A stretch of DNA of 21,202 nucleotides from a virus. The stretch lies in IMG/VR virus record IMGVR_UViG_3300030329_005906, positions 1 to 21,202 of that record; one strand, 5' to 3'. This document shows positions 5,073-12,146 of this stretch, piece after piece; position 1 is the first letter of the stretch, and each line of letters begins with the position of its first letter. The position numbers and the translations under genes were made by a program. Under the pieces are notes generated by a model. That model saw nothing but the letters and a program-made list of their open reading frames with translations, was not told the DNA's origin and searched no databases.

Positions 5073-6476
5073 CTAATAACCCACCTCGGCGCCCTCCAGC
5101 GCCTCATGCCCCGGCAATTCCCCAATCAAGTCATCCAGCGTGGGTCGCACATACTCCATCAGCATGTCCCCCAGTAAACCCCCCGCGGCTACCGCCATCA
5201 CCAACGCATCCGCACGGTCAGGACTCGCCAACCCACGCATCTTCATCTCCCCCTTCGCCTCCAGCATCAATTTCCCCTGCCGATTGCTCGCACAACGCCG
5301 TGCCGTCATCTGCCCCATCAACACCTCGTCTTCCGGCGGCAAAATCAACTCACACTTCTCAACCAATCGCGCCGTCGCAAACCACATCTCCGCGGCACGA
5401 TTCGCATACGCATCCGATTCCCGCGCCGGACTCCCAAAATTCACCCGGTGAATATTCCAACCCGCCTCACTCAACGCATCGGCCATCGGCAAACCCAACC
5501 CCCCCACATCACACCAAACCTGCTCCGACTTCAAACCTTCCCGCCGAAACTCCGTGATAAAACGCCCCACCGCCCGCATCGTATCCTTCTCACGCCACGC
5601 AATAATCTTCGTCACCTCGTTCCCCCTCCTCACCACCATAACATTCTCATCCCCGCCCCCGGCAAAATCCACCCCACACGCCACATCCTTCCCACTCTTC
5701 CGCGGCGGGTTCTGCACACAATGCTCCCAACTCGCATACGGCACCACCACCCGCTCATCGTCCATCTCCATGAACTCCCCAAACACCATCGATCGAATCA
5801 AAGGATGATCACGGCCCCAACGCTCAAACTGTTCCTCAATCCACTCCGGCGCAATGTGCGGGCAATCATAACTCGTCACCGTGTTCAAATCCCACAGGTG
5901 CTGTTGCCGGCTGAAAATGCGATGAAACTCCCCCTTGCACCCGCCCGGCGAACTAATCACCAGCAATCGTGTCGGTTGACACCTCTCCACCGCCTGAAAA
6001 ATCTCGTCCTTCACAGTCTTCGCCTCGTCAATGATCATCAACAGATTATCCGCGTGCCAACCCTCAAACCGACCCGGATCATCGGTCGAAAAACCAATAA
6101 TCCGACTCCCATGAACCGTCGTCAAATCCGTCTGGTTAATCTGCACCCCCCACCCCTTCACTTTGTTCGCCAAGCTCCGAATGCACGGCCACATCTGCTC
6201 CTTAACCTGCCGAAATACCCCCGATGTCGTCACACAAATGCTCCCAGGATAAATCAACGCATGCCACAACGCCGCCGGCGCAGCCAAAAAAGTTGTTTTC
6301 CCACTCCCGTTAGCCGCCTTCACCGCCACCCGACTCTTCCCCCCACGCCCCACAATCTGCCCCATCACCCGACGTTGCCAGGGATAGATTTCCAACCCAA
6401 AAATCTGCTCGCTGAACTTGTCCAAGTCAGTGACGCTGGGGTCTAGTTTTTTAGTCTTCGTCGTTACTTCAGTCAT
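5073..6476 (-). CDS. terL: Terminase large subunit
   Basis: 467 residues. ATPase domain: Walker A AANGSGKT at residues 54-61, Walker B LLMIIDEA with D150/E151, then LLVISSPGG as the coupling region. Nuclease domain: GVDFAGGGDE with D270, VWCDVGGLG near 323 and SPDRADAL near 440, giving the three acidic metal-binding positions of the RNase H-like fold. It packages and cuts phage DNA with the small terminase. The first four bases (ATGA) overlap the stop of the preceding XF1762-like gene. The GGGAGG further upstream and the TerL start context suggest the original promoter-proximal arrangement before that gene was inserted. Codon use is strongly C-ending when read on the plus strand, which creates long false frames opposite. 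Confidence 0.95.
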   Translation of the reverse strand: MTEVTTKTKKLDPSVTDLDKFSEQIFGLEIYPWQRRVMGQIVGRGGKSRVAVKAANGSGKTTFLAAPAALWHALIYPGSICVTTSGVFRQVKEQMWPCIRSLANKVKGWGVQINQTDLTTVHGSRIIGFSTDDPGRFEGWHADNLLMIIDEAKTVKDEIFQAVERCQPTRLLVISSPGGCKGEFHRIFSRQQHLWDLNTVTSYDCPHIAPEWIEEQFERWGRDHPLIRSMVFGEFMEMDDERVVVPYASWEHCVQNPPRKSGKDVACGVDFAGGGDENVMVVRRGNEVTKIIAWREKDTMRAVGRFITEFRREGLKSEQVWCDVGGLGLPMADALSEAGWNIHRVNFGSPARESDAYANRAAEMWFATARLVEKCELILPPEDEVLMGQMTARRCASNRQGKLMLEAKGEMKMRGLASPDRADALVMAVAAGGLLGDMLMEYVRPTLDDLIGELPGHEALEGAEVGY

Positions 6477-6947
6477 TTTTGTGTGTTAACCTCCCATCTA
6501 AATTTTTGTTGTCCGTAAATGGGTTGCCATTCCCTCTTTATTCCATCCTTTTTATTTAACCACTGATTGTGGGGTTTACTCTCCCCAACAACTTTCCACC
6601 CCGCACCTTTCACCGAAGCACCAGACTCACTGGCAAGCGTGTAGGTGATTAACTTTAAGCCGCCCATTGCTTGCCATGCTCGCCAACATGCCGAATACAA
6701 TTTACTGCATGAGTTTTTGGGAGCTTCATCATTAACACAAACCCTCAACACTTCGGCAGTTCCTCTTTTCATAAATGTAGCCGAAAGCGGGTTTCCAACT
6801 ATCGCAACACCAACAAGCGCATCTGTCTCTAGGCCAATCGCAAACTTCCCCCCGTCCCTAGAAGTCCGGCTATTATGCCGGTGAAATGACTCAACAAAGT
6901 CATTTGCTTCTCTCAGGGTTATAGGGACAATAGTCATTTTTGTGTGT
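6471..6947. repeat. 16-bp direct repeats bracketing the XF1762-like gene
   Basis: AGTCATTTTTGTGTGT occurs exactly at 6471-6486 and 6932-6947, 461 bp apart. On the minus strand it reads ACACACAAAAATGACT and includes the start codons of both TerL and the XF1762-like gene. The repeat spacing equals one gene unit. This is what an insertion or tandem duplication with a copied start context would leave. Confidence 0.75.
6473..6937 (-). CDS. XF1762 family protein (GNAT-like fold)
   Basis: 154 residues. The run MTIVPITLREANDFVESFHRHN, KFAIGLE, LVGVAIVGNPLS, TAEVLRVCVNDEAP, CSKLYSACWRAWQAMGG and LITYTLASESGASVKGAGWK matches the XF1762 family found in phages and mobile elements; these read like acetyltransferase-fold proteins. 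The biochemical role is unproven in the family as far as I know. It lies between small and large terminase, an unusual place, is visibly more AT-rich than its neighbours, and begins with the same 16-nt start context as TerL. No good ribosome binding site is seen in front of it. It is probably a cargo (moron-like) gene. Confidence 0.85.
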   Translation of the reverse strand: MTIVPITLREANDFVESFHRHNSRTSRDGGKFAIGLETDALVGVAIVGNPLSATFMKRGTAEVLRVCVNDEAPKNSCSKLYSACWRAWQAMGGLKLITYTLASESGASVKGAGWKVVGESKPHNQWLNKKDGIKREWQPIYGQQKFRWEVNTQK

Positions 6948-10422: not shown

Positions 10423-10539
10423 TTATTCCCCCTCGCAAGTGCAGCCAAAGCTCGCGCATTCGCTGCAATAATCGTCCTCATGCTCAAATCCCATGTAGTC
10501 CATGTGCCGCATTTCGGCTTCGTGGTCTGCGTCAGTCAT
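10423..10539 (-). CDS. 38-residue Cys-rich mini-protein
   Basis: The frame runs from ATG 10539 to TAA 10423-10425. The product begins MTDADHEAEMRHMDYMG and ends with C-x2-C-x4-C-x-C (YCSECASFGCTCEGE), a possible small metal-binding site. Its start codon overlaps the methyltransferase stop (ATGACTGA), as is usual in this operon. The neighbouring gene downstream also starts MTDAD, encoded by the same bases. It is not recognised as a family. Confidence 0.55.
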   Translation of the reverse strand: MTDADHEAEMRHMDYMGFEHEDDYCSECASFGCTCEGE

Positions 10540-11647
10540 TCATCAACTCCTTGTACAACGTCCTAAAAGCTACTTCCGCCGTATCCGGCACCACCCCATT
10601 GCCCAATAACCTCAACCGATCCACGCGGTTGGCAGTTGGGTCCAGCCCACTCTCGGTAGTCCCATCAGTTGCTCGACCCAATTTGGATTCAGTTTGCCGT
10701 TTGCTCCTTTCACCACCTTCTCCTCCAGATACAACGGCACAGTGTTCTTGCCCTTGCTCTGCCGAAACTTGAGGCACTTCTCCATCGTCTCCTCGCTGCG
10801 CGGGCGGCTCATTGCCGTTGGGGTTGGCCAGTTCTGCACCTGCGCTGGCAACGGTTGTTGATGAACTTTCCCCTCCGCATTCCGCTTCACCCATGTGTCC
10901 AGATTCTCCGCGCTCGTCTTGTCGGCTCGCGGTGTCGCCCACAACTCTTGGCTCTTCCCATTCGTGCTGGGGTTCGCCAGGGCGGGCGGGCCATTCTCTT
11001 CGATGTTCACTGCATCGGGAAGTAGGTCGCCCCTCATCTTCCCGTCCTTCCGCTTCAGCGTCACATAGCAACCCTTCCAATCTCTCGCCGAGGCTGTGGG
11101 CCAGGATGAACACTCTTTTCCGCTGGTGTGGCGCACCGCATTCAGCCGCTGAGAATACGCCCCACGCACACTGGTAACCTTCTCTTTCCAATTCTCTGAG
11201 GCAATGAAGCAAAACGGGCGTTCCGGCTGGGTCGGCCCATCCGTCTCCCTTGAGTTTGGTGCTGATAATTCCTTCCACGTTTTCAAGGAAGACCCATTCT
11301 GGCTGAATAGTTCGTATTGCATTTTTTATGTAGGGGAAGAGGTGCCTTGGGTCTTCGTCGCCTTCTTGCTTTCCTGCTGCTGAGAAAGGCTGGCAGGGAA
11401 AACCCCCTGATAAGATAGAAACGCCTTTTGGAATGCAGTCCAAAGGGAGGGCCTTAAGATCCGCCCAGATAGGACACGGATCCAGTTCACCCGCTTCCAT
11501 CTTTGCGACCAGGTTTGCGACCGCGTAGGCTTCGATCTCGCTAACAAGGACTGTTCGCAGAGTTGGCAGGCATCGTTTAAGTCCGAGGTCGATCCCTCCG
11601 TATCCAGCGCAGAGTGAGACGTGTGTAATTGGCGCGGTAGTATCCAC
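10532..11647 (-). CDS. DNA (cytosine-5) methyltransferase
   Basis: 371 residues from GTG 11647, which overlaps the TAA of the preceding gene. Motif I is VSLCAGYGGIDLGL (10-23), motif IV GGFPCQPFS with catalytic Cys85, motif VI FLENVEG (E122-N123-V124), motif VIII GAPHQRKRVF (171-180) and motif X DRLRLLGNGVVP near 343-354. The stretch between motifs VIII and X, the usual target-recognition area, is long, charged and low-complexity. It coincides with a second reading frame that also looks like protein. It methylates C5 of cytosine in an unknown target, likely to protect phage DNA from host restriction. Confidence 0.93.
   Translation of the reverse strand: MDTTAPITHVSLCAGYGGIDLGLKRCLPTLRTVLVSEIEAYAVANLVAKMEAGELDPCPIWADLKALPLDCIPKGVSILSGGFPCQPFSAAGKQEGDEDPRHLFPYIKNAIRTIQPEWVFLENVEGIISTKLKGDGWADPAGTPVLLHCLRELEREGYQCAWGVFSAAECGAPHQRKRVFILAHSLGERLEGLLCDAEAEGREDEGRPTSRCSEHRREWPARPGEPQHEWEEPRVVGDTASRQDERGESGHMGEAECGGESSSTTVASAGAELANPNGNEPPAQRGDDGEVPQVSAEQGQEHCAVVSGGEGGERSKRQTESKLGRATDGTTESGLDPTANRVDRLRLLGNGVVPDTAEVAFRTLYKELMND
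10612..11322 (-). CDS. Nested out-of-frame gene inside the methyltransferase (WPTP / LMG-P-GWT type protein)
   Basis: A 236-residue frame starting at ATG 11322, in a different minus frame from the methyltransferase and lying wholly within it. It contains repeated SSWPTASARDWKG, LWATPRADK and NWPTPTAMSRP blocks and ends GKLNPNWVEQLMGLPRVGWT, a pattern I know from phage proteins linked to cytosine methyltransferases. It begins right after the ENV motif region and stops almost exactly where motif X begins in the other frame. Shadow frames rarely show such repeated family-like motifs. No clear ribosome binding site was seen. It could be a real overprinted gene or the remnant of an older frame of the recognition domain. 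Confidence 0.55.
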   Translation of the reverse strand: MQYELFSQNGSSLKTWKELSAPNSRETDGPTQPERPFCFIASENWKEKVTSVRGAYSQRLNAVRHTSGKECSSWPTASARDWKGCYVTLKRKDGKMRGDLLPDAVNIEENGPPALANPSTNGKSQELWATPRADKTSAENLDTWVKRNAEGKVHQQPLPAQVQNWPTPTAMSRPRSEETMEKCLKFRQSKGKNTVPLYLEEKVVKGANGKLNPNWVEQLMGLPRVGWTQLPTAWIG

Positions 11648-11648
11648 A

Positions 11649-12146
11649 TTAGTTGGCCTCCAGCGTGTAAACCGGCTTTACCATTCCGGCGAGGAGGTGC
11701 TGGTGCGCACGTCTCTTCACCTCGGCAATGGTCAGGCGTTTGCGACTGTCGATGGTAACCTCTGCCTCTATTTTAACGCGGCAACGGTTTGGCGCCGGTT
11801 CACGCTCCGAGTCGTCCGGGTTCATCTCCAGCAGATGCTTGAGCCGCCAGAAACGCTTGGCTGTGTGTTTGCAAATGCCGATCAACCCGCGGATTTTCTT
11901 GGTCGCATACAAGACAGTACCGTGGTCCCTGTTAAAAACAGTCCCCACACCCACCGCGGTGGCGCCCAATTCCCTCAAAATGAACATTGCCATTTGCCGT
12001 GCCTCCACCAGCAGGAACGTCCGTCGTCGTCCCAACAACTCACCCCGCGTCACCCCGTAGACCTCGCAGACCTCGCGGATGACCTCATCACAAAACTCTT
12101 TTCGCAAAGCATTGCTCGCGCCAATTCGGTGTGGACTCATGGTCAT
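11649..12146 (-). CDS. Stand-alone DnaA domain IV-like DNA-binding protein
   Basis: 165 residues. Residues about 17-95 match the C-terminal DNA-binding domain of DnaA: VIREVCEVYGVTRGELLGRRRTFLLVEARQ, then ILRELG, then the signature FNRDHGTVLYATKKI (R73-D74-H75), equivalent to the RDHTTVLHA loop that reads DnaA boxes. The AAA+ ATPase domain is absent. The C-terminal 60 residues are basic and unassigned. It could load replication at a phage origin or compete with host DnaA. The start ATG 12146 overlaps the exonuclease stop by four bases (ATGA). Confidence 0.85.
   Translation of the reverse strand: MTMSPHRIGASNALRKEFCDEVIREVCEVYGVTRGELLGRRRTFLLVEARQMAMFILRELGATAVGVGTVFNRDHGTVLYATKKIRGLIGICKHTAKRFWRLKHLLEMNPDDSEREPAPNRCRVKIEAEVTIDSRKRLTIAEVKRRAHQHLLAGMVKPVYTLEAN

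Follow-up and report, generated by a model that had tools for sequence, protein, structure and literature searches.

M.EcoHK31I, which recognises YGGCCR, is a C5-cytosine DNA methyltransferase composed of two polypeptides, as is M.EaeI. Lee, Kam and Shaw are said to have found in 1995 that the beta subunit of M.EcoHK31I is read from another frame within the gene of the alpha subunit. The large chain of this two-polypeptide enzyme carries motifs I-VIII and X and the small chain carries motif IX; some part in recognition was predicted for the alpha subunit (PMC3404938). The catalytic and recognition halves are also situated on separate chains in M.AquI, in other split C5 methyltransferases and in the gp6/gp5 pair of phage Catdawg, but there motif X belongs to the small half and the overlap of the genes is absent or short. 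A second frame hidden in a phage methylase gene has been reported for ShiLan (PMC11855218). That out-of-frame HNH frame is a mobile endonuclease insert of scattered occurrence and contributes no part of the methyltransferase, which makes it a different phenomenon.

The window analysed here is the whole 21,202-nucleotide stretch of the virus record IMGVR_UViG_3300030329_005906 (IMG/VR). The initial annotation had pointed to two protein-like frames overprinted in one methyltransferase gene of its minus strand, and both frames are present where it placed them (Table 1). The best reading of the arrangement, by analogy, is a two-subunit enzyme of the M.EcoHK31I type. The split of the motifs is the same, with I-VIII and X on the large chain and IX on the small one, the two systems being compared by description and motif IX being identified here by its pattern and PHROG membership. 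Unlike M.EcoHK31I, the phage system has blocks resembling a target-recognition domain (TRD), of WPT type, in beta; its +1 frame usually spans the whole alpha gene from a common start; and it is widespread in phages. What sets it apart from the M.AquI and Catdawg type is the place of motif X, on alpha, and an almost complete overlap.

Table 1. Features of the overlapped methyltransferase gene (window coordinates)
Feature	Position	Strand	Remarks
Alpha, C5-cytosine methyltransferase, frame 0	10532..11647	-	371 aa; starts with GTG; motifs I-VIII and X joined by disordered linker
Motif IV of alpha, GFPCQPF	11384..11404	-	Catalytic; PCQPF region invariant or nearly so
Linker element of alpha, WPARPGEPQHEWEEPRVV	10940..10993	-	Conserved; same bases encode GPPALANPSTNGKSQELWATP of beta
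Motif X of alpha, RVDRLRLLGNGVVP...	10535..10627	-	Helices well folded in model
Shine-Dalgarno-like GGAGG	11657..11661	-	7 nt ahead of ATG; read from sequence
Dual start ATGTG	11645..11649	-	+1 frame begins at ATG 11649-11647, alpha at GTG 11647-11645
ORF A, upstream part of +1 frame	11326..11649	-	107 codons; ATG overlaps alpha start
TAA-AAA-ATG	11320..11328	-	ORF A stop and beta start; conserved within window's clade
Beta (ORF B), nested +1 frame	10612..11322	-	236 aa; WPT blocks (TRD-like), motif-IX-like end
Block 1 of beta, WPTASARDW	11077..11103	-	WPT block; overlaps alpha right after motif VIII
Block 2 of beta, WATPRAD	10921..10941	-
Block 3 of beta, WPTPTAM	10810..10830	-
Motif-IX-like end of beta, LNPNWVEQLMGLPRVGWT	10639..10695	-

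The alpha frame has motifs I, IV (PCQ), VI (ENV, amino acids 122-124) and VIII of a C5-methyltransferase catalytic domain, as judged by profile, invariant columns and fold. It lacks a small domain holding a TRD and motif IX in one chain, a motif-IX-like sequence being absent from alpha and present in the +1 frame only. In the profile search PF00145 matched amino acids 8-189 with an E-value of 5.7e-36, the match ending at profile position 166 of 324, that is, past motif VIII. The core modelled with AlphaFold2 has a confident fold which was found to match M.HhaI on fold comparison. The core and motif X have pLDDT values of at least 90, and amino acids 192-333 have values of about 37-55, except for a short stretch near 81. 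In the model this linker is mostly disordered and contains no recognisable small domain. Nevertheless, alpha itself may take some part in recognition, because the element WPARPGExQxEWEEPRVV, kept in the alignment of relatives, sits in its linker. Motif X of alpha matches the end of the phrog_1008 profile (positions 289-319).

The nested frame, with its 236 codons, its WPT-type blocks and its LNPNWVEQLMGLPRVGWT end, is as initially annotated. It stops at about alpha codon 345, where motif X begins, also as described; its ATG had been placed just past ENV, but alpha codon 109, where it in fact lies, precedes that motif by about 13 codons. Residues L211, W215, E217, L219 and G221 near the end of beta are invariant across 104 sequences, and the motif-IX-like pattern of the nested frame is LNPxWVEQLMGxPxGWT. 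Beta matched phrog_1008 ('DNA methyltransferase') with an E-value of 1.1e-12, amino acids 38-230 aligning to positions 96-281 of the 329 in the profile. By this profile the nested protein is a member of PHROG 1008, a library entry that is silent on overprinting. The profile search gave no Pfam match for the nested protein, and sequence searches of solved structures gave no PDB match for beta or its profile. The AlphaFold2 model of beta alone was poor (pLDDT 58.8, pTM 0.24) and unusable for a fold search. Motif IX is called from its pattern, its position and the PHROG to which beta belongs; when the beta profile was compared with Catdawg gp5 by hhalign, the WPT part alone was aligned. Two single-frame phage enzymes compared with the PDB were matched in their catalytic half only, so that motif IX is without an anchor in a solved structure.

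Relatives were gathered by two scans of viral contigs, one seeded with each frame, which gave 121 distinct loci with placeable motifs I-VIII and X. These motifs are in a common frame in 120 of the 121. The sole exception, with motif X out of frame with I-VIII (L147, 3001-3976), may be an assembly error or a true frame change. Between motifs VIII and X no +1 stop occurs in any of the 120 distinct loci, although many of them share ancestry and the counts of loci overstate their independence. The +2 frame is never open there. Upon permutation of synonymous codons, 284 +1 stops were expected between VIII and X (114 loci with open alpha) and none was observed, and in motifs I-VIII 14 were observed against 322 expected (112 loci). 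The corresponding +2 counts were 1043 observed and 1072 expected between VIII and X, and 752 and 896 in motifs I-VIII. In 559 control ORFs from the same contigs, 5862 +1 stops were observed against 5998 expected. For the window by itself only 1.5 stops are expected between VIII and X and 9% of the permutations are free of stops; the case for the nested frame is thus carried by the comparative data. Searches for homologues of the nested frame, made with three queries, yielded 55, 113 and 116 phage records, and a strict genome scan returned only 6 loci. Alpha is interrupted between VIII and X in five loci, L022, L024, L047, L069 and L076. In these, many stops close it not far past motif VIII with the nested frame open, and motif X lies in a separate short open stretch.

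Selection was estimated from disjoint pairs. Between motifs VIII and X the first codon position of alpha, equivalent to the third position in nested codons, evolves fastest, and substitutions are concentrated at sites silent for the nested frame. Rates of synonymous and non-synonymous change in both frames, a comparison that the initial annotation had proposed, gave an omega (dNN/dNS) of 0.20 (0.16-0.24) for the nested frame and 0.92 (0.72-1.24) for alpha in this stretch; with the sequences aligned by the alpha frame instead, the values were 0.28 and 0.68. The baseline of dNN/dNS in control genes is 0.69-0.71. In motifs I-VIII the constraint falls mainly on alpha (omega 0.18-0.26), and close pairs have diverged at wobble positions about half as much as control genes of equal protein identity. 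Changes that are silent in alpha and alter beta are depleted there: dSN/dSS, a ratio derived from estimated overlap and control substitution rates, is 0.23-0.31, as opposed to 0.77-0.79 in controls, the depletion peaking at alpha amino acids 21-60 and 141-160. As it stays open more than chance would allow and is subject to purifying selection, the nested frame is, on the evidence of these alignments, a real overlapping gene.

The overlap is larger than had been noticed at the outset: in most cases nothing interrupts the +1 frame from one end of the gene to the other, and a start codon of its own lies 2 nt from where alpha begins. Among 113 loci having the alpha N-terminus, ATGTGGAT is found in 88 and GTGTGGAT or TTGTGGAT in 9, all three placing a +1 start codon 2 nt ahead of the alpha GTG. 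The remaining loci have a +1 ATG near the alpha start with a different spacing. An open +1 ATG at most 30 nt from the alpha start was found in 104 of the 113 loci, compared with 16 of 538 control ORFs, and when GTG and TTG (9 loci) are included, every one of the 113 has a +1 start near that of alpha. Directly upstream, the 165-amino-acid ORF at 11649-12146 (minus strand) matches the DnaA C-terminal helix-turn-helix (PF08299, E = 2.2e-17); the stop of this ORF shares bases with the +1 start ATG, in TAATG.

ORF A is joined to beta without a break in most relatives. An internal +1 stop occurs in 10 loci, at codon 107 in the eight of the window's clade and at codon 80 in L017 and L018; four further +1 stops are at codon 1, ahead of the start. 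In the loci of the window's clade an ATG follows the stop closely, the sequence being TAA-AAA-ATG or TAA-AGA-ATG. Here wobble positions are invariant at 10 of the 12 codons 103-114, compared with 2-5 of 12 in most adjacent stretches. Since the stop-ATG is conserved and the flanking wobble positions are nearly frozen, beta probably starts at ATG 11322 in this clade, and the start listed in the initial annotation is likely to be correct for it.

The preferred reading, to which a probability of roughly 0.78 is given, is that one gene yields two proteins that jointly form a C5-cytosine DNA methyltransferase, with beta providing the TRD and motif IX. Frame 0 would encode the catalytic domain (I-VIII and X), with the long disordered linker replacing the small domain, and the +1 frame would encode motif IX and, with the WPT blocks, a region of variable sequence for target recognition. 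Once translated, alpha and beta would associate into an active enzyme in which alpha methylates and beta reads the sequence, the probable purpose being to shield the phage DNA against host restriction. In most relatives a single ribosome-binding site would serve both proteins through the overlapping starts (ATGTG). In the window's clade, where TAA-AAA-ATG cuts the +1 frame, beta would start at ATG 11322, perhaps by termination-reinitiation. The chances are about even for a more far-reaching version: two full genes on the same bases (about 1.1 kb), with a common ribosome-binding site and starts 2 nt apart, encoding an obligate heterodimer balanced by start-codon choice in a large and diverse phage group.

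That beta is the recognition and motif IX subunit is inferred from several comparisons. Catdawg gp6 stops past motif VIII, and the overlapping gp5, which matches phrog_1008 with an E-value of 5.2e-59, has WPT blocks, motif IX and, unlike the nested protein, motif X in one chain. In Mycobacterium phages Tweety (gp72) and KyMonks1A (gp92) a motif-IX-like sequence is followed by X in the same frame. The five loci in which alpha is closed and the missing small domain of alpha lend further support. Single-frame enzymes such as that of Tweety (L167, 2177-2578) still have PTP blocks in the +1 frame ahead of the point where motif IX returns to frame 0, which suggests that parts have moved between frames by frame changes.

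The initial annotation had left a choice between a genuine overlapping gene and a frameshift that swapped the recognition domain. The former is supported by the absence of stops in relatives and by the low nested omega. Neither of the outcomes that the initial annotation had named as refuting it, a want of phage homologues or frequent stops in close relatives, was observed. As to the latter, the idea of a recognition domain was largely right, in that TRD-like blocks and a motif-IX-like sequence do lie in the nested frame, but a recent frameshift is rejected since the two-frame arrangement is conserved in very diverse phages. Programmed +1 ribosomal frameshifting, by which alpha I-VIII would continue into the nested TRD and motif IX as a single polypeptide, has in its favour an overlap of hundreds of codons, in which a shift at any codon between 109 and about 185 could join the two parts in frame. 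Motif X would then require shifting back. Moreover, the +1 start codons keep their place 2 nt from that of alpha, the frame is open even upstream of plausible shift sites, and Catdawg has both parts as separate genes; this mechanism is thus quite improbable. It is unlikely, too, that the nested protein is real but independent of the methyltransferase, a regulator or an anti-restriction factor for example, as the want of Pfam and PDB matches and the poor stand-alone model might indicate. The same family is fused to motif X as one half of a split methyltransferase (Catdawg gp5, phrog_1008), and the end of beta resembles the motif IX of single-frame enzymes, a motif which alpha lacks.

There is little reason now to regard alpha as a complete small methyltransferase whose open +1 frame is a by-product of codon use or composition. 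The stop-free permutations of the window and the conserved element in the alpha linker are compatible with such an origin, but the permutations across relatives, the control ORFs, the substitution pattern and the conserved starts are all contrary to it, and five loci lose the alpha frame yet keep beta. A frame open by chance is contradicted by the comparative data and was rejected. No more credible is a mobile out-of-frame insert akin to the endonuclease hidden in the ShiLan methylase. That published case gives a precedent for an out-of-frame ORF within an insert (PMC11855218), but the nested frame matched neither HNH nor any other endonuclease family, extends over core motif VIII, and is universal among the 120 relatives rather than scattered, and the mobile insert was likewise rejected.

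Direct reading of the sequences showed the +1 overlap in Paenibacillus phages Diva and Xenia, Acinetobacter phage ABMM1, Lacticaseibacillus phage R23.9, phage C75C1, Salmonella phage SLP-22, Klebsiella phages MAG26fr and BUCT711, E. coli phage K1G, Synechococcus phage Yong-M2-251 and Microcystis phage Mel-JY01, and also in bacterial assemblies of Shimia and Kroppenstedtia. The +1 frame starts near the alpha start in ABMM1, C75C1, Mel-JY01, BUCT711 and Yong-M2-251. Both frames are annotated in some genome records: DIVA_50 was labelled 'g49 internal gene' by the authors of Diva, and ORF30 of K1G is inside ORF31. Diva_50 and K1G ORF30 match phrog_1008, as does Catdawg gp5. When plasmids were searched by tblastn, the three nested proteins used as queries matched either nothing or just four records apiece.

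Some further observations concern individual loci. In BUCT711 (L180, 1497-2177) the annotated methyltransferase start at 1662 is apparently too far downstream, the frame with motif I being open from about 1497, adjoining the +1 ATG. L173 (3913-4197) and L174 (982-1437) have fragments of the beta end and motif X with the catalytic half absent nearby, and are perhaps decayed prophage copies. Elsewhere in the window, the ORF at 6473-6937 (minus strand) matches the Mom family (PF25680) with an E-value of 2.9e-6, just above the cut-off, which suggests that the window has one more gene for modifying DNA. In L171 Mom is matched more clearly, upstream of the overlapped methyltransferase.

The two-frame layout is kept in more than 100 related phage sequences, and in the part of the literature that was covered no account of this arrangement in phages turned up. 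Long same-strand overlaps with selection on both frames are rarely documented for DNA phages, and gene-calling programs usually retain just one of two overlapping frames. Should recognition be the task of beta, the annotated proteins of many phage C5 methyltransferases would not reveal their specificity, and an assay of the annotated frame alone would make the enzyme appear falsely inactive. The overlap would also be a natural system in which one stretch of DNA varies a recognition domain while a second frame stays open.
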